Positions 5,799 to 18,372 of a stretch of DNA of 64,000 bases are shown here, in pieces; the first letter of the stretch is position 1, and each line of letters opens with the position of its first letter. The translations under genes were made by a program, and so were the position numbers. Source of the DNA: an uncultured Pirellulaceae bacterium (GTDB lineage Bacteria; Planctomycetota; Planctomycetia; Pirellulales; Pirellulaceae); NCBI GenBank assembly GCA_905480235.1, contig CAJQPP010000021.1, positions 1 to 64,000 of the forward strand, read 5' to 3'. The notes below the pieces were generated by a model, which saw only the letters and a program-made list of their open reading frames with translations, had not been told where the DNA came from and did no database searches.

Positions 5799-6233
5799 AA
5801 AATCCTCCTCGTAAGGGAATTTCGGCAGTCCGAGTGCATCCGGGCGGTTCGTATCCTGTTTCGACTTCGATGCCGAGGCTGTAGTTGAAGAGGGGGGCCA
5901 CTACAGGTGTCAAAGAAAAGCTCTACCCCCATTTTACCCAGAACTCACGTGCGTGTCTTGAAAAAGACGTAAAGCAAATGGCTGTATTGGTTTAGGGAAA
6001 TGGACATGGGTTGGAAGAAACCCCCGTTTTCAGCTCTTTCGGGGGGTGTGATGTGGGGTTTGCTGGATCAAAATAAGCCTGGGAAACGCAGATCCCCACG
6101 GGTTGAGTATGACCGCGCTCAGCGCAGACGAACGCGTTGTCAGGCTCACAATGGCAGAGGATCACAAAATGAATACGCTTTCGTAAAAAATTATGTGACG
6201 CTTTGGTACTCTGAAGAGACTAACTCCCCAGTT
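5799..6233. other. Upstream region of sigma factor gene
   Basis: About 435 bp between the divergent HExxH gene and the ECF sigma gene. The sigma frame extends upstream to 6000, but the family homology begins after 6234, so this stretch is read as leader/promoter DNA. No clear -35/-10 pair could be called by eye. Confidence 0.35.
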
Positions 6234-6809
6234 ATGAAAACCATGCCATTACCCATCCACCAAATTGACGATCACGAGCTAGTACAGCTGGCAGCCGAGG
6301 GTTCTCGAGAGGCATTTGGAGAGTTGGTTTCGCGGCATCATTTGAAGGTGCGAGCCATGTTGTGGCGTTCTTTGGGCGATGAATCGGCGGTCGACGATGT
6401 GGCGCAAGAGGTTTTTATGTCGGCCCTTTCGGGGGTAAGTCGTTTTCGCCAGCAGGCCAGTTTTTCGACATGGTTGTTGGCGATCGCTCGAAACAAGGCA
6501 ATATCGCATTTGCGAAAAAAATGTACGGCGAGCGGAAAAACCGTCAGTGGACTGGACCTTGCGGTGATTGAGCATCAAATCCAAATTTTGGATGAGGGCA
6601 AAACGGAGCCAGCCAATCTGGATGCATTGCGAAACTGTGTCACCAAATTGAGCGATTCACATCGGCAGCTGGTTCAGGAAATTTATTTCAACGAACGGAG
6701 TACTGCCGAATTGTCGGCGGCAACGGGAGTGGCTCGAAACACATTACGCATGCAATTAATGCGTATTCGCCGAGCACTAGCAGGTTGTATTGAACGCAAT
6801 GTCGAATGA
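6234..6809 (+). CDS. ECF-type RNA polymerase sigma factor
   Basis: 191 aa from the ATG at 6234. It is a sigma-70 family protein with only regions 2 and 4, of the extracytoplasmic-function type common in planctomycetes. Region 2 spans about residues 15-85 (ALGDLV-type helix, DDVAQEVFMSALSGV, RNKAISHLRKK). Region 4 spans about 125-185 and ends in a helix-turn-helix (STAELSAATGVARNTLRMQL). The frame is open to 6000, but the extra 78 residues are not family-like, and homology starts right after MKTMPLP. The gene is followed 115 bp later by a membrane FecR-like protein that probably acts as its anti-sigma/sensor. It would direct core polymerase to a small regulon, possibly including the secreted proteins downstream. 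Confidence 0.88.
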   Translation: MKTMPLPIHQIDDHELVQLAAEGSREAFGELVSRHHLKVRAMLWRSLGDESAVDDVAQEVFMSALSGVSRFRQQASFSTWLLAIARNKAISHLRKKCTASGKTVSGLDLAVIEHQIQILDEGKTEPANLDALRNCVTKLSDSHRQLVQEIYFNERSTAELSAATGVARNTLRMQLMRIRRALAGCIERNVE

Positions 6810-6924: not shown

Positions 6925-8619
6925 ATGGATCCCAAACGAAGAAATAAAGCTTGGATTCGATGGCTTGAGGGGCGCAACCTTGAGCATACGGAGGTGACCG
7001 AACTCACCCATGAGATGGAGGCCAAAGAAACTCTGGCAGGGCAACTTTGGAGCGATCTTGATATTCATCGTCAATTGAAAGCCGCGCAAAAACTCGAAGC
7101 CGATGATTTCACTTTTGTTGGGCGTATGATGGCTCGTTTCGAGGTCGAGAGAACACCCCAGTTAGATTCAACGCCCGTGCCCGAAAGTGAATCTTTATTC
7201 AGTTCAGATGCGCCTGTGCTAGATCTGGAGGCAATGTCAATAGAGGCTCCGCCACAGGCATTGACGGTTGGCCTGCCAGAGCGAAATCGAGAGCACGAAG
7301 ATCAAGGGACGTTTCGCATCTCGGCGGTGCAGTCGAGCCGTCCGGGTGCGAAAAAAACGACGATACGGATGTTCGCCTTGGCCGCCTGTTTCCTATTAAT
7401 GGCATCGATGTTGTGGTTCGCCTATGAAATGGGCCGAAGTAACGGGCCCGCCCCCGTCGCCGGCAAGCAAAGCGATACTCCCGCAGACATTTCAACAGAA
7501 GTGGTGGGAAAGGACGAGATTCCTACACCGCCCGATTTGAAACCTTTGGGCGATGACCTCGCTAATCGAGACGGTCGGTCCGCTGCTGACGCAAACAAGA
7601 TTATCTCACCTGACAAAGCGGTGGAACCATCGGTCCCAGCAGACGCAATAGCCAACCAGAAACCCGTTGAAACGTTGAAAACATTGAACGAGCAACCCGG
7701 GTTAAAAGTCGCACCGAACACTTTTGCAAAAATCATCGAAGCTCAAACAGCGACATGGGCAAAGCGGCCCAAAGACTGGCCCCGTGTCAGTGATCAACCA
7801 CTCGAGCTGCAGTCTGGCACCGTGACGTTCGAGTTGGATCAAGGCGGGGAGTTTACGGTTACCGGCCCAGCCCAATTTTCCATTGGCGAACAGGGAGTCG
7901 ATTTTCAAACGGGACAAGCTGCCTTCGTCATACCGGACTTAGGTGACGAAACATTTGTGGTGAACGCTCGTAACAATCAGATTCAACCCGCGGGTGTGAC
8001 GCGATTTCAGTTGAATGTCGACGATAACAACTCGGATCTAAAAGTGGACCGGGGAGCCTTGGAAGTCAATCCTTGGTTTGGACGGATGGTTACTAAACCG
8101 ATGGAGCTGAATGCGAATAAGCGAAATCGCTTGACGATCGAAGGGCATGATGGCGGACAGCCAGCGGTGGCGCGTTTGAGTGGAGAGCAGGATCAGTTCG
8201 AGGGTTGGATTAACTTTCAGGACCGCGTTTTGAAGTCTACAGATGCTGAATTAGTAGACGACGTGTTTCGCCGAGCAAAGAAAAGGTATAGCGAATCGCC
8301 CCAGCGACTTGGGCAGGAATGGAAAAACTTGACGGATCTGTCAACCGACCAGCTGATGCAAAGACCTGGTCGAATGGGGAACCCTCAAATGCAAAATTCC
8401 CCACAATCTGAGCAGATGATGAAGCAAATGCGCGAGATGATTGAGCAAATGCAACAGCAAGCTCAGGAAGCCGCTAGGAACGGTAGACAAGGTGGATTTA
8501 ATTTTAATTTTGATGGGCAAGATTTTCAGTTCCAAAAGCAGGGCGATTTCAAGTCAATGGAAAAGCAATTGTTGGGTCCCTTCGCGGATCTAGCCGAACG
8601 TTTGAAACGCGGGCAGTAA
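6925..8619 (+). CDS. FecR-like membrane anti-sigma protein
   Basis: 564 aa. The N-terminal about 75 residues form a charged helical region (zinc-less anti-sigma-like). A Pro/Glu-rich linker follows, then one membrane segment at about 150-170 (FALAACFLLMASMLWFAYEM), and a periplasmic FecR-like beta domain at about 255-410 (LELQSGTVTFELDQGGEFTV, GPAQFSI). The C-terminus is Met/Gln-rich (MMKQMREMIEQMQQQAQEA) and then Asn/Phe/Asp-rich (FNFNFDGQDFQFQKQGD), probably disordered. The arrangement of an inside helical part, one membrane pass and an outside FecR domain, directly after an ECF sigma gene, is that of a sigma regulator. The start is supported by GAGAGGG upstream of the ATG. The low-complexity tail is unusual for FecR proteins. 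Confidence 0.75.
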   Translation: MDPKRRNKAWIRWLEGRNLEHTEVTELTHEMEAKETLAGQLWSDLDIHRQLKAAQKLEADDFTFVGRMMARFEVERTPQLDSTPVPESESLFSSDAPVLDLEAMSIEAPPQALTVGLPERNREHEDQGTFRISAVQSSRPGAKKTTIRMFALAACFLLMASMLWFAYEMGRSNGPAPVAGKQSDTPADISTEVVGKDEIPTPPDLKPLGDDLANRDGRSAADANKIISPDKAVEPSVPADAIANQKPVETLKTLNEQPGLKVAPNTFAKIIEAQTATWAKRPKDWPRVSDQPLELQSGTVTFELDQGGEFTVTGPAQFSIGEQGVDFQTGQAAFVIPDLGDETFVVNARNNQIQPAGVTRFQLNVDDNNSDLKVDRGALEVNPWFGRMVTKPMELNANKRNRLTIEGHDGGQPAVARLSGEQDQFEGWINFQDRVLKSTDAELVDDVFRRAKKRYSESPQRLGQEWKNLTDLSTDQLMQRPGRMGNPQMQNSPQSEQMMKQMREMIEQMQQQAQEAARNGRQGGFNFNFDGQDFQFQKQGDFKSMEKQLLGPFADLAERLKRGQ

Positions 8620-8700: not shown

Positions 8701-9213
8701 ATGAAGTGGATCTTGGTATTTACAATCCTCTGCTGTGCCTCGGTCAATCAGGCAATCGCCCAAACCGAGGTCCCTGTGATTAAGTTCACCGATACGAATC
8801 CTCGTGAGTGGGCTGACGACAGCAACCAAAACCGTCTAACCGCACGCTTGTTGTCACGAAATACCGAGGCAAACAAGGTGCTGTTGGAATGCACTGACGG
8901 GACGACCGTTGAAGTCGTGCTCAGCGACCTGTCTATGTCTGATCGAAAGTACATCGCTCGGCAAACCTCTAAAGTAAAACGGGCGGCTCATCGTTTGGAG
9001 CGTCAGCGGCGACAAGGCGATGAAGATTTATTGGTAGATGCGTCACAGAGGGTTCAGCCATCGGCCAAACCCAAAAAAAATCTCGGTAACACTCGGCGTG
9101 TGAGTAATCTCGACTGGCTGAGGACACCGCAAAAAGCACGCGCAGTTGCCAAAGCCAAAGATCTTCCGATTATCTGGTTTCGCGTGCTCGGCGACATCGA
9201 CGGGTATATGTGA
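8701..9213 (+). CDS. SHD1-thioredoxin-like protein, N-terminal part up to in-frame TGA
   Basis: Secreted protein. The start at 8701 has AAGGAG 7 nt upstream and gives a clean signal peptide (MKWILVFTILCCASVNQAIA). Residues about 35-85 match the SHD1 domain (EWADDSNQNRLTARLL ... TVEVVLSDLS), common in planctomycete secreted proteins. A basic linker follows, then the first strand and helix of a thioredoxin-like fold (ARAVAKAKDLPIIWFRVLGD). The frame ends at TGA 9211-9213, and the same frame continues after it with the rest of the thioredoxin fold (see 9229-9864). So this is either the front half of a broken gene or a recoded one. It is co-directional with the sigma/anti-sigma pair (81 bp gap). 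Confidence 0.7.
   Translation: MKWILVFTILCCASVNQAIAQTEVPVIKFTDTNPREWADDSNQNRLTARLLSRNTEANKVLLECTDGTTVEVVLSDLSMSDRKYIARQTSKVKRAAHRLERQRRQGDEDLLVDASQRVQPSAKPKKNLGNTRRVSNLDWLRTPQKARAVAKAKDLPIIWFRVLGDIDGYM
9211..9213 (+). other. In-frame TGA at the thioredoxin nucleophile position
   Basis: The TGA interrupts one continuous frame. By eye, the flanks (GYM-TGA-SAGHRMRTVTFS) line up with the family pattern WCxxCxxMxxxTFS, which puts TGA at the first Cys of CxxC. A small hairpin lies 17 nt downstream: GAGGAC (9231-9236), loop CGTGAC, GTTCTC (9243-9248), with one G-U pair. Alternatives are a point mutation from TGC/TGT, a sequencing error, or selenocysteine. Confidence 0.45.
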
Positions 9214-9228
9214 AGTGCGGGCCATCGC

Positions 9229-9864
9229 ATGAGGACCGTGACGTTCTCCACACCCCAAGTAAAAAACGCTATTGCCCATCATTTCGTGCCCCTGAATTCC
9301 AACATTGAGGGCGAGCTGCTGGCCGGCGAAAGTACTGGCCACGCACTGAATGAACCCCCCGGAGACTGCATTCGCGGCAACGGCCGTCAAAATGTACAGA
9401 CCATTTTTATGACGCCGGACGAAGAGATTTTCCATGTCGCGACCGGCTTCCTTGCACCTCAGGATATATTGACCGAGATGCAATTCGCCACCAAATTGTT
9501 TAACAGATTAAAGGCGGAGGATGAAAATCGTTACGATCTTGTACGAACGGCTCATCAGGACGTGCTGCAAAATCTTGGTTCATCCGGACCCATGGGCGGT
9601 ATTAACGGGCAACTAACCGAATCCATGCGGGAAATGATGAAGTCGGCTCAAAACGGTCAAATGCCTATCTCTGGCATGGGTGGAATGGGAAATCCATTTC
9701 AACAGCTCAGCAACCAATTCATGACGCAGGATCAGCGATTTATGGTGAACCGCCCCTTGATCCATCGATCCGATTTCGAACGAGATCCGGGAGAATTGGT
9801 AGGGCGTGGGAAGACGTTTTTTAGCAGCAGCAAAAGCTCTAATCAGGGCATTCCAGGCCGTTAA
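9229..9864 (+). CDS. Thioredoxin-like protein, C-terminal part after in-frame TGA
   Basis: Continues the frame of the SHD1 gene 15 nt after the TGA. It can start at the ATG at 9229, which lacks a good ribosome-binding site, so independent translation is doubtful. The sequence RMRTVTFSTPQVKNAIAHHFVPL is the helix after the CxxC motif plus the following strand of thioredoxin-7-like proteins. Then come IFMTPDEEIFHVATGFLAP (beta strands and cis-Pro region) and a helical segment. The tail is Met/Gly/Gln-rich (SGMGGMGNPFQQLSNQ), like other planctomycete secreted proteins. Read through the TGA, the whole gene 8701-9864 would encode about 387 residues with signal peptide, SHD1 and a thioredoxin-like fold. 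Without the first half, this piece lacks a signal peptide and the N-terminal strand. Confidence 0.6.
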   Translation: MRTVTFSTPQVKNAIAHHFVPLNSNIEGELLAGESTGHALNEPPGDCIRGNGRQNVQTIFMTPDEEIFHVATGFLAPQDILTEMQFATKLFNRLKAEDENRYDLVRTAHQDVLQNLGSSGPMGGINGQLTESMREMMKSAQNGQMPISGMGGMGNPFQQLSNQFMTQDQRFMVNRPLIHRSDFERDPGELVGRGKTFFSSSKSSNQGIPGR

Positions 9865-12710: not shown

Positions 12711-13499
12711 GTGAGCAACCAGACGGCGGAGCAGATCGCCGAAAAAATTCGAAACGCCGAGGCCAGCGGGGCTTTAATTGCACCTGTCAAGGATGACTTT
12801 TTCGAAGCCACCGTGGATGCCGCCTATGAGGTCCAGCAAATCAATACCGAGTTCCACCTCGGAGAGGGGCGTATTGTCAGTGGTCGCAAGATTGGATTGA
12901 CTTCGCCGGCCGTTCAAAAACAGCTGGGCGTGGACCAGCCGGATTTCGGAGTCTTATGGAAAGATACGGAATATCAGGACGGCGAGGAGATCCCGTTCTC
13001 GCGGCTGCATCAACCCAAGATCGAATGTGAAATTGCCCTCATCCTTGGCCGCAGTATTGATCATCCCCATCCGGGGATTTCGGAAGTCATGCGAGCCGTC
13101 GATTACATCGTACCGGCGTTGGAGATTGTGGGCAGTCGGATCGCCGACTGGAAAATCAGCATCGTCGATACGGTGGCAGATAATGCCTCTTCGGGCATGT
13201 ACGTTTTGGGAGGGACTCCCAACAAATTAGAAGGCCTCGATTTGCGACTCTGTGGCATGGTGATGGAACGCGACGGCGAACCGGTCTCCACAGGATGCGG
13301 GGCTGCCTGTATGGGGCATCCCTTGCACGCAGCCGTCTGGTTGGCACAGACCATGGTCGCACGAGAAATGCCCTTGCAGGCAGGGGACGTTGTCTTAACC
13401 GGCGCCCTGGGACCGATGGTTAATGTGGAACCCGGAGACGTGTTCTCGGCCAGCATTCACGGGCTGGGGTCCGTGCGAGCCATTTTCAGTAAGGAGTAG
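12711..13499 (+). CDS. mhpD: 2-oxopent-4-enoate hydratase (2-hydroxypenta-2,4-dienoate hydratase)
   Basis: 262 aa, GTG start, first gene of a meta-cleavage operon. It adds water to 2-hydroxypenta-2,4-dienoate to give 4-hydroxy-2-oxovalerate. Family motifs: GRKIGLTSPAVQKQLGVDQPDFG near residue 60, metal-binding Glu residues in PKIECEIALILG, VPALEIVGSRIADWKI, DNASSGMYVLGG and GDVVLTGALGPMVNVEPGD. The LTSPAVQKQLGV form is closer to MhpD/DmpE/XylJ than to the decarboxylase XylI (LTSRAKMxQMGV), whose equivalent is the fourth gene here. Three bases separate it from the dehydrogenase gene, so the two are surely co-transcribed. Length is normal for the family (about 260). Confidence 0.88.
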   Translation: MSNQTAEQIAEKIRNAEASGALIAPVKDDFFEATVDAAYEVQQINTEFHLGEGRIVSGRKIGLTSPAVQKQLGVDQPDFGVLWKDTEYQDGEEIPFSRLHQPKIECEIALILGRSIDHPHPGISEVMRAVDYIVPALEIVGSRIADWKISIVDTVADNASSGMYVLGGTPNKLEGLDLRLCGMVMERDGEPVSTGCGAACMGHPLHAAVWLAQTMVAREMPLQAGDVVLTGALGPMVNVEPGDVFSASIHGLGSVRAIFSKE

Positions 13500-13502
13500 G
13501 CG

Positions 13503-14450
13503 ATGGGCATGCCGCACACAAAAACAAAAATTGCCATCTTGGGATCGGGGAATATTGGCACCGATTTAATGATCAAGGTGCTAAGGAATTCGGATATTCT
13601 GGAGGCAGCGGTGCTGGTGGGCATCGATCCTGATTCGGACGGTTTGGCGCGAGCTCGCAGCATGGGTGTTGCTACCACTCACGAAGGGATTGACGGGCTG
13701 CTGAAAATGCCAGAGTTCGCCGAGATCAAAATGGTCTTTGATGCGACAAGTGCTGCCGCCCATCAGAAGCACGACGAATTGCTCCGCCAACATCAAAAAC
13801 AAATGGTCGATTTGACGCCTGCCGCGATTGGTCCCTACACGATTCCCGTGGTCAATTTAGATGAGCATCTGTCGGCACCCAATGTGAACATGGTGACGTG
13901 CGGTGGACAGGCCACGATTCCCATGGTGGCGGCGATTGGGCATGTGCACCCCGTCATTTACGGTGAGATTGTCTCGTCGATTTCATCCAAGTCAGCCGGC
14001 CCAGGGACACGTGCCAACATCGATGAATTTACAGTCACCACAGCGCGAGCCATTGAGCAAGTCGGCGGAGCACGTCACGGAAAAGCGATTATCGTTCTGA
14101 ATCCTGCGGAGCCTCCCTTGTTGATGCGAAACACCGTAATGTGCCTGGTCGAGGGCGACGCGGATCAAGCGGCCGTCGAACGATCCGTCAAGCAAATGGT
14201 CGACGATGTGCAATCCTATGTGCCTGGCTATCGTTTGAAACAGCAAGTCCAGTTTGATGCGGTTGCAGACCTTACAGATCCTCGCGTTAGTCAGGTGCGG
14301 CGAGGCACAAAGATCACGATCTTTTTGGAAGTCGAAGGGGCGGCCCATTACTTGCCAGCTTATGCCGGCAACCTCGACATCATGACGTCAGCAGCTTTGC
14401 GGACTGCCGAGCGAATCATTGAACTGCGTGGACAGGAGATGGCGGTATGA
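13503..14450 (+). CDS. mhpF: Acetaldehyde dehydrogenase (acylating)
   Basis: 315 aa. Converts acetaldehyde, CoA and NAD+ to acetyl-CoA, taking acetaldehyde through a tunnel from the aldolase partner. NAD-binding motif [10 protein letters not shown] near the N-terminus, catalytic Cys in [14 protein letters not shown] (about residue 130), and typical [15 protein letters not shown] segment ([17 protein letters not shown]) and ETAERI-like end ([12 protein letters not shown]). The start has AAGGAG 8 nt upstream, inside the end of the hydratase gene. The last 4 bases overlap the aldolase start (ATGA), in line with the tight DmpFG complex. Length matches MhpF/DmpF. Confidence 0.93.
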
Positions 14451-15460
14451 ATCATCAGGAAAAGCCAAACCTGTACATCCAAGATGTAACCTTACGAGAT
14501 GGCATGCATGCGATCGGCCATCAGTACCAATTGCCCGATGTCATTGCCATCGCGACGGCACTGGATGAAGCCAAGGTCGATGCGATTGAGATTACCCACG
14601 GTGATGGGTTGGCAGGGTCCAGTTTTAATTATGGATTTGGATTGCATACGGATTGGGAATGGATCGAAGCCGTTGCCAGTGTCGTTAAGCACGCCAAAGT
14701 AACCGTTTTGTTATTGCCGGGCATTGGCACCGTAGAGGATTTACAACAGGCCCAACGCCTGGGTGCAACTTCTGTTCGGATCGCAACCCACTGCACCGAA
14801 GCAGACGTCTCGAGGCAACATATCGAGTGGGCCAGCGAGAACGGGATGGATGTCGCTGGATTTCTCATGATGGCACATATGAGTCCTCCTGAAGAATTGG
14901 CACAGCAGGCAAAATTAATGGAGACATACGGCGCCGATTGTGTCTACGTTACGGACAGCAGTGGCGCGATGACGATGGCAGATATCGAAGCCAGATTTAA
15001 CGCTTACGATCGTGTGCTGAAACCGGAAACACAGCGTGGCATGCATGCCCACCATAACCTCAGTCTGGGCGTCGCCAATACCATCGCAGCCATACAACAT
15101 GGGGCGACTCGGGTAGATGGTTCGCTGGCTGGCATGGGGGCGGGAGCCGGAAATGCGCCGCTGGAGGTCCTGCTGGCTGTTTGCGATCGCTATGGCTGGG
15201 AACATGGTTGCGACCTGTTCGCGTTGATCGATGCTGCCGATGACCTTGTGAGACCCTTGCAAAAACGCCCGGTAAGAGTCGATCGTGAAACATTGATGTT
15301 GGGTTACGCAGGCGTTTATTCCAGCTTTTTATTGCATGCTGAGCGGGCCAGTCAGAAATATGGCGTCGATGCACGAGAGATACTTATGGAACTGGGGCGG
15401 CGGCGGATGGTGGGCGGACAAGAAGATATGATTGTCGATGTCGCACTGGATCTAAAATAA
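14447..15460 (+). CDS. mhpE: 4-hydroxy-2-oxovalerate aldolase
   Basis: 337 aa. Class II, metal-dependent aldolase that splits 4-hydroxy-2-oxovalerate to pyruvate and acetaldehyde. Catalytic/metal motifs: [17 protein letters not shown] at the N-terminus (Arg-Asp pair), [30 protein letters not shown], and the metal His pair in [15 protein letters not shown] followed by [18 protein letters not shown]. Its start overlaps the dehydrogenase by 4 bp and has AGGAG upstream, so translation is coupled. Length and motifs are standard for DmpG/MhpE. Confidence 0.94.
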
Positions 15461-17611: not shown

Positions 17612-17998
17612 CTATCCCGTCTGGACCGCGGTTTGAAGGAGCAATGCCTCCTCGATCATTTGATACAGGCAGAGCCGCTCATCTTGTTTTGCAAAGGCGT
17701 CGTCCGCTTGCAGTCTCGACAGAATATCAGCCGCAGAGACATCAAACCCATCTAGGATTTCACGAGCATCAAACCAGGTAGGTAACCAGCAAAGATCTTT
17801 TTTCAGCTGCTCGATGGAATCGGCTCGTCTCAAAAAGTGCTTGATGTCGAGAATATAGTACACCAAGTCGTGAAACGGCGATTCGCAATTGATAATACCG
17901 GCTTCGTCCCAAACGTAACTGCCGGTGCCCGGTGCCCAATCCAACCCGAGTTGCTTTAGCTGTCGGGCTTTTGTAATTTCTGCTTTGGTGAATTTCAT
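17612..17998 (-). CDS. Hypothetical protein, paralogue of divergent neighbour
   Basis: 128 aa, acidic, no signal peptide or membrane segment. It aligns without gaps at the N-terminus with the gene at 18022-18372: MKFTKAEITKARQLKQLGLD against MEFSEQQIKRAIELKTAGLL, then W-P-G-Y, SPF, VYYxLDIxxF and WLPT at matching positions. The two start codons face away from each other with only 23 bp between them. Function unknown. The first 60 residues, a basic-acidic helix followed by a WxPxxGxYxxD turn, are the conserved part. Confidence 0.7.
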   Translation of the reverse strand: MKFTKAEITKARQLKQLGLDWAPGTGSYVWDEAGIINCESPFHDLVYYILDIKHFLRRADSIEQLKKDLCWLPTWFDAREILDGFDVSAADILSRLQADDAFAKQDERLCLYQMIEEALLLQTAVQTG

Positions 17999-18021
17999 GA
18001 ATGTTTTTCGGTAAGAGTCGA

Positions 18022-18372
18022 ATGGAATTTAGCGAGCAACAAATAAAAAGGGCAATCGAGTTGAAGACGGCCGGACTGCTTTGGCAACCGCAGAAAGGCC
18101 AGTACATCTTCGATATTCACGAGCGAATTGGACCTGGCTCGCCGTTTCAAAAAGGCGTGTACTACCTGCTCGATATTGACTGCTTTGTCGACTACTTCGG
18201 CTCGCCAGCGAACTTGTCAGCGTTCACAGCATGGCTGCCTACCTTTGAAGAGGTAAGGTCGTTACTGAAAACGAAGGTCGATCATCAGCAGTTGTCGGTG
18301 CCCCTGCAACGAGGCACGGAGTTGGAGTATTTGTACGGTTTGCTCCTAACCGAACTCAAAAACGTTCAATAA
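18022..18372 (+). CDS. Hypothetical protein, paralogue of divergent neighbour
   Basis: 116 aa. Homologous to the divergent minus-strand gene 17612-17998: shared LK-x-x-G-L-x-W-x-P-x-x-G-x-Y, then GSPFQKGVYYLLDID and AWLPTFEEV. The alignment begins exactly at the ATG at 18022, which decides this start over the in-frame ATG at 18001. Cytoplasmic, no known domain. Ends 36 bp before the photolyase-fusion gene on the same strand, so the two may be co-transcribed. Function not assigned. Confidence 0.7.
   Translation: MEFSEQQIKRAIELKTAGLLWQPQKGQYIFDIHERIGPGSPFQKGVYYLLDIDCFVDYFGSPANLSAFTAWLPTFEEVRSLLKTKVDHQQLSVPLQRGTELEYLYGLLLTELKNVQ

Follow-up and report, generated by a model that had tools for sequence, protein, structure and literature searches.

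There is little doubt that the TGA at positions 9211-9213 of the window, the 64,000-nucleotide stretch of DNA analysed here, encodes selenocysteine, the 21st amino acid, since relatives of the gene throughout the Planctomycetota keep this codon together with a matching hairpin in genomes endowed with the selenocysteine machinery. The gene (8701-9864, plus strand, as for all its features given below) ends at a TAA stop (9862-9864) and, as judged from its TGA-bearing homologues and dN/dS, would specify a selenoprotein of 387 amino acids with the selenocysteine (U) as residue 171. An AAAGGAG sequence is located 5' of its ATG. The earlier note, written from the sequence of the window, had described a single frame running from a signal peptide and an SHD1 domain into a thioredoxin-like fold, and this description holds: TGA 9211-9213 is the sole interruption of the open frame. 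The first 20 residues (MKWILVFTILCCASVNQAIA, followed by Q; 8701-8760) read as an ordinary-looking signal peptide that probably directs export from the cytoplasm, the N-termini being alike in most homologues. The SHD1 domain (PF03983; residues 33-90, 8797-8970) scores 29.1 bits against a Pfam cut-off of 23.7 and has a Pfam match in 5 of the 10 close family members; this part of the protein was matched to 2hbp by sequence and also by a structure model (Z 8.1, low-confidence model). Residues 134-292 (9100-9576) correspond to a thioredoxin-like domain related to DsbH/DUF255, as indicated by alignment, by a low-confidence model and by a match to PF03190 (Thioredox_DsbH; residues 136-292) which, with 21 bits versus 27, falls below the curated cut-off, the same family being matched in 8 of the 10 close members. 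Over residues 132-289 the model retrieved 3f9u, 2lst, 3ira and the DsbH structure 2ju5 (Z 8.9, 7.3, 7.1 and 6.1, respectively), with the DsbD C-terminal domain also among the matching thioredoxin-fold chains; these values derive from a model built from only three sequences, with a mean pLDDT of 53.6 and an active-site loop below 50. The source genome (4.8 Mb in 167 contigs, 86.7% complete) carries a single copy of the gene, and named close relatives are Planctomycetaceae MAGs.

The codon itself is conserved. A search of 199 genomes from the same taxonomic family gave eight further near-full-length matches, each with exactly one TGA and always in the context RVLGDLxGxM-U-SAGHxMRTVxFS. When 392 genomes of the phylum were searched with a profile, TGA-bearing domains turned up in 47 genomes from about 27 families, in which the codon occupies the identical alignment column and is shared down to about 25% identity; a tree of 62 rows to which further paralogues were added (FastTree, midpoint-rooted, with no formal test of topology) comprises 53 distinct domain copies with TGA. 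The core family is defined around this codon by the motif U-S-A-G/A-H, and neither Cys nor any other residue was found at the TGA column among the core USAGH/USAAH copies recovered; one row of the tree (L051, AGC) is a spurious hit. Comparison with the homologue L002 revealed dN/dS values of 0.19 before the TGA (0.23/1.21) and 0.10 after it (0.13/1.30), and purifying selection thus acts on the codons at either side of it. The earlier note had regarded a nonsense mutation or a sequencing error as equally possible, and a lone TGA in an assembly of metagenome quality, 86.7% complete, could indeed be taken for the remnant of a broken Cys or Trp codon or for the mark of a pseudogene. That judgement was too cautious: since this TGA recurs in dozens of assemblies obtained independently, a mere sequencing error and a nonsense mutation private to this genome are both excluded, and the selection on the 3' codons and the conserved hairpin described below further argue against decay, leaving this explanation with a negligible probability.

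Alignments also support the assignment of the codon to a redox position. DsbH-type proteins with a CHWCHVM motif (L112-L115) are within reach of the family profile; their first Cys aligns to the TGA, as had been proposed for the window gene, and their second to the Gly of the family. U171 would therefore take the place of the first Cys of a CxxC motif. Replacement of the second Cys by Gly, already noticed in the window, is a family-wide trait, with Gly or Ala in every selenocysteine-containing member of the core family, and points to a mono-selenol protein. Checking the homologues at this position uncovered TGA or, in distant clades, Cys, the latter being limited to the DsbH-type proteins and to a nested clade with a CANSR motif (L026, L028, L110 and L111), where the codon is TGC or TGT. 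As this clade branches inside a group of selenocysteine paralogues, its position suggests one single replacement of selenocysteine by Cys.

A second line of evidence is provided by the putative SECIS element of the mRNA. The upper stem-loop in the window (GAGGAC/CGUGAC/GUUCUC, 9231-9248) consists of a 6-bp stem (9231-9236 paired to 9243-9248) with one G-U pair that starts 17 nt from the UGA, closed by the loop CGUGAC, which lies 23 nt after the UGA and has a G within its first two positions. Published constraints for bacterial SECIS (bSECIS) elements demand a loop of 3-9 nt, a stem of 4-16 bp, a G in the first two loop positions, a spacing of 16-37 nt and a minimum free energy of -7.5 kcal/mol or lower (PMC13188914). 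When checked against these values the window hairpin has the geometry of a bSECIS, but in isolation its stem reaches only -5.2 kcal/mol; a local 45-nt fold around it reaches -12.2 kcal/mol. The local z-score of the hairpin is -0.29, which is not significant. The earlier description of this stem-loop as weak is thus right for the single copy, and the SECIS argument rests on the comparison of relatives, where the structure does exceed chance. In 44 out of 44 TGA copies the best hairpin occurs at the same place (loop start at +24/+25, with two at +21), as it does in 8 of 9 additional paralogues with TGA, and 29 of the 44 isolated hairpins fall within all published limits as compared with 3.0% of synonymous shuffles. 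Of the copies whose loop has 6 nt (32 in all), 15 have A-U and 16 have G-C at +25:+34; the codons involved are ACC/TTC or GCC/CTC, so that in 30 of them the two residues covary as Thr/Phe or Ala/Leu, with one additional conservative variant of the Leu codon. Other copies have loops of 3 or 4 nt, a 3' arm that has moved with respect to the codons, and novel pairings such as CAGAGC/GCUCUG and CACUACG/CGUAGUG; UGCGUAC/GUACGCA was found among the paralogues. Sliding the pairing partner by 1 to 3 nt lowers the paired cells from 222/256 to 86-130/256. Combining hairpin placement over the 44 TGA copies by Fisher's method gives 8e-24, a figure that we do not take as a probability, given that the sequences share ancestry. 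No hairpin was found at the SECIS place in any of the 4 CANSR Cys genes; chance hairpins near +25 do occur in 2 of the 4 DsbH-type Cys genes examined as a control, and the absence of a SECIS is therefore claimed for the CANSR clade only. Judged by this comparison, the stem-loop is most probably a conserved bacterial SECIS.

Concerning the machinery, the earlier note had stated that nothing shows this organism to make selenocysteine. The search it proposed for selA, selB, selC and selD reverses that statement, as SelA, SelB, SelD and a tRNA-Sec with a TCA anticodon are all encoded by the source genome and pass their cut-offs, and the SelD (L089, G000:C123:6965-7891) is itself a selenocysteine-containing protein (ASCAGUAGK). 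Among the other carrier genomes examined, a SelB above the cut-off was detected in 13 of 14, and a tRNA-Sec in 12 of 14. SelA scores above the cut-off in 43 of the 47 carriers versus 220 of the 345 remaining genomes (Fisher p 4e-5); SelA is nonetheless encoded by most of the phylum, so this co-occurrence with the family constitutes weak evidence. One family member (L092, G199:C298) and selA share a strand and lie some 2 kb apart, and a tblastn search with the SelB of the source genome did not find SelB between them; linkage to a sel operon was dropped as a general feature, having been seen in that one genome and not in others.

Evolution clearly shows that the codon is read through, which would equally be expected if a suppressor tRNA or a general reassignment led to the insertion of Trp, Cys or Gly at UGA. 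This is very improbable: TGA terminates 9 of the 38 long ORFs of the window, which argues against a global reassignment, a search directed at tRNA-Sec recovered that tRNA with the TCA anticodon, a genuine selenocysteine-containing SelD is encoded by the same genome, and the hairpin has the geometry of a bSECIS and disappears from the clade with a Cys codon. Just as little credit can be given to the synthesis of two proteins, with a stop at the TGA and a restart at the ATG at 9229, 15 nt past it, to yield a separate C-terminal product. Such a break would cut the thioredoxin fold at the active site, no Shine-Dalgarno-like sequence is visible for this ATG, whose Met, kept by close relatives, gives way to Leu, Ile, Phe or Tyr in other members, and the Cys versions are single uninterrupted proteins. 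The selenocysteine reading proposed for the window thus receives strong support from the conserved codon, the conserved hairpin and the sel machinery together. On this basis SelB, charged with Sec-tRNA(UCA), would bind the hairpin at 9231-9248 to promote decoding of the UGA at 9211-9213 as selenocysteine.

With regard to function, the mature protein would combine the SHD1 module with a DsbH-type thioredoxin fold carrying selenocysteine at the position of the first Cys of CxxC and Gly or Ala at that of the second. We consider it likely that it is an exported mono-selenol redox enzyme, in which Sec171 would act as the nucleophile; the reduction of extracytoplasmic peroxides or oxidised thiols would be its most plausible reaction, and a role as exported peroxidase or redox sensor can be envisaged. 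Among the residues that the ten close members conserve around U171 are His175, Arg178, Ser211, His214, Cys223, Asn231 and Gln233. Cys223 (9367-9369) is invariant in these ten relatives and is a possible resolving Cys; it is missing from many distant members, so this role could apply to only part of the family. Resolution might then proceed through Cys223 in the SHD1-bearing subfamily and through an external thiol elsewhere. It is less probable, yet deserves consideration, that the selenoprotein has no redox activity and that its selenol binds a metal or metalloid, as a chaperone or a sensor tied to the gene cassette described below. The lack of a CxxC partner, the conservation of His175, His214, Asn231 and Gln233, the presence of a sigma factor in the cassette and the occurrence in the family of Val, Thr or Ile within N-V-Q where DsbH-type proteins have Pro (as read from the alignments) would all be compatible with metal binding, but most characterised thioredoxin-fold selenoproteins are redox enzymes (PMC13188914).

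The selenoprotein gene is the third of a cassette whose order, ECF sigma factor, FecR-like protein and selenoprotein, recurs at L093, L034 and L096 and in part at L095 and L105; outside it, the flanking genes are common to the sister genome only. The first gene (6000-6809, plus strand) encodes an ECF-type sigma factor (Pfam Sigma70_r2, 61.7 bits), the true start of which is probably downstream of 6000. The second (6925-8619, plus strand) encodes a FecR-like membrane protein, a probable anti-sigma factor or sensor; it has no Pfam match of its own and is related to the product of L095 3821-5488 (E 4e-16), which does have a FecR domain, and a large ORF also occupies this position at L093, L034 and L096. 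This arrangement suggests a place for the selenoprotein in an envelope redox-stress circuit together with the sigma factor and the FecR-like protein, and it is tempting to speculate, albeit tentatively, that it serves as the redox input or output of the cassette. Elsewhere in the window, the region 12711-15460 contains genes resembling those for 2-keto-4-pentenoate hydratase, acetaldehyde dehydrogenase and 4-hydroxy-2-oxovalerate aldolase, read as the end of a meta-cleavage pathway and shared with the sister genome (L103), and a divergently transcribed pair of short look-alike proteins (17612-17998, minus strand, and 18001-18372, plus strand; QLKQLGLDWAPG and ELKTAGLLWQP) is likewise conserved there.

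Related TGA-bearing genes extend beyond the core family. Two genomes (L122 and L123; G407:C24 and G313:C4) each carry two adjacent paralogues with ULAAH and ULGGH motifs, an in-frame TGA and a SECIS-like hairpin being present in every one of them, and more divergent TGA paralogues (L116, L117, L120, L015, L036, L038 and L119) with the motifs UNNG, UGNG, UGAA and UNNA may represent further selenoprotein families. As a conjecture that we hold with some reserve, the Planctomycetota would harbour a large superfamily of proteins that are exported, have a thioredoxin fold and act through a single selenol (subfamilies USAGH, ULAAH, UNNA and UANGR, sometimes in tandem). Selenocysteine would be ancestral in it and almost never replaced by Cys, and the SHD1 branch would do the redox sensing for an ECF sigma/FecR-like switch, as either its output or its input.

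That planctomycetes have selenoproteins is already known (PMC4807772), and the closest described systems share some of the traits of this family. Thioredox_DsbH/DUF255 (PF03190) has in common with it the thioredoxin-like fold, the alignment of the TGA with the first Cys of CHWCHVM and the His of the motif, but the new family has UxxG/A instead of CxxC, scores below the cut-off and adds a signal peptide, along with SHD1 in the close group. The Trx7/PDZ domain selenoprotein (NF041199; PMC13188914) is also a predicted bacterial thioredoxin-fold selenoprotein, whereas its motif is CxxU, with selenocysteine second, it has a PDZ domain and its NCBIfam model matches 0 of 10 members. In the thiol:disulfide interchange selenoprotein (PF13098, UxxC) and thioredoxin (PF00085, UxxC) selenocysteine is likewise first in the motif; both keep the second Cys, where the core family has Gly or Ala, and those Pfam models do not match the family. 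Glutathione-peroxidase-like and peroxiredoxin selenoproteins (UxxT, TxxU) share the mono-selenol chemistry devoid of a CxxC partner that is proposed here, but no sequence match to the new family. No relevant NCBIfam model was retrieved for any of the ten members at E values up to 1, and an SHD1- or DsbH-type UxxG thioredoxin-like family is absent from the 119-family table of a 2026 review (PMC13188914). A literature search of freely accessible main texts found no paper on the family. The lack of an NCBIfam match and of a fit among the 119 published prokaryotic families makes this Planctomycetota-wide family appear undescribed.

Published screens filter for pairs of TGA and Cys homologues (PMC1088965, PMC12013277). 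Since they need Cys homologues, a family whose close members all contain selenocysteine can be missed systematically, and the one reported here exposes a phylum-wide blind spot of this approach; ordinary gene callers would moreover report its members as two truncated genes. The predicted bacterial selenoprotein families thus gain one, from a phylum that appears under-mined. The clade with Cys in place of selenocysteine and devoid of a SECIS offers a natural comparison, and the near-irreplaceability of selenocysteine in this family becomes a testable question.
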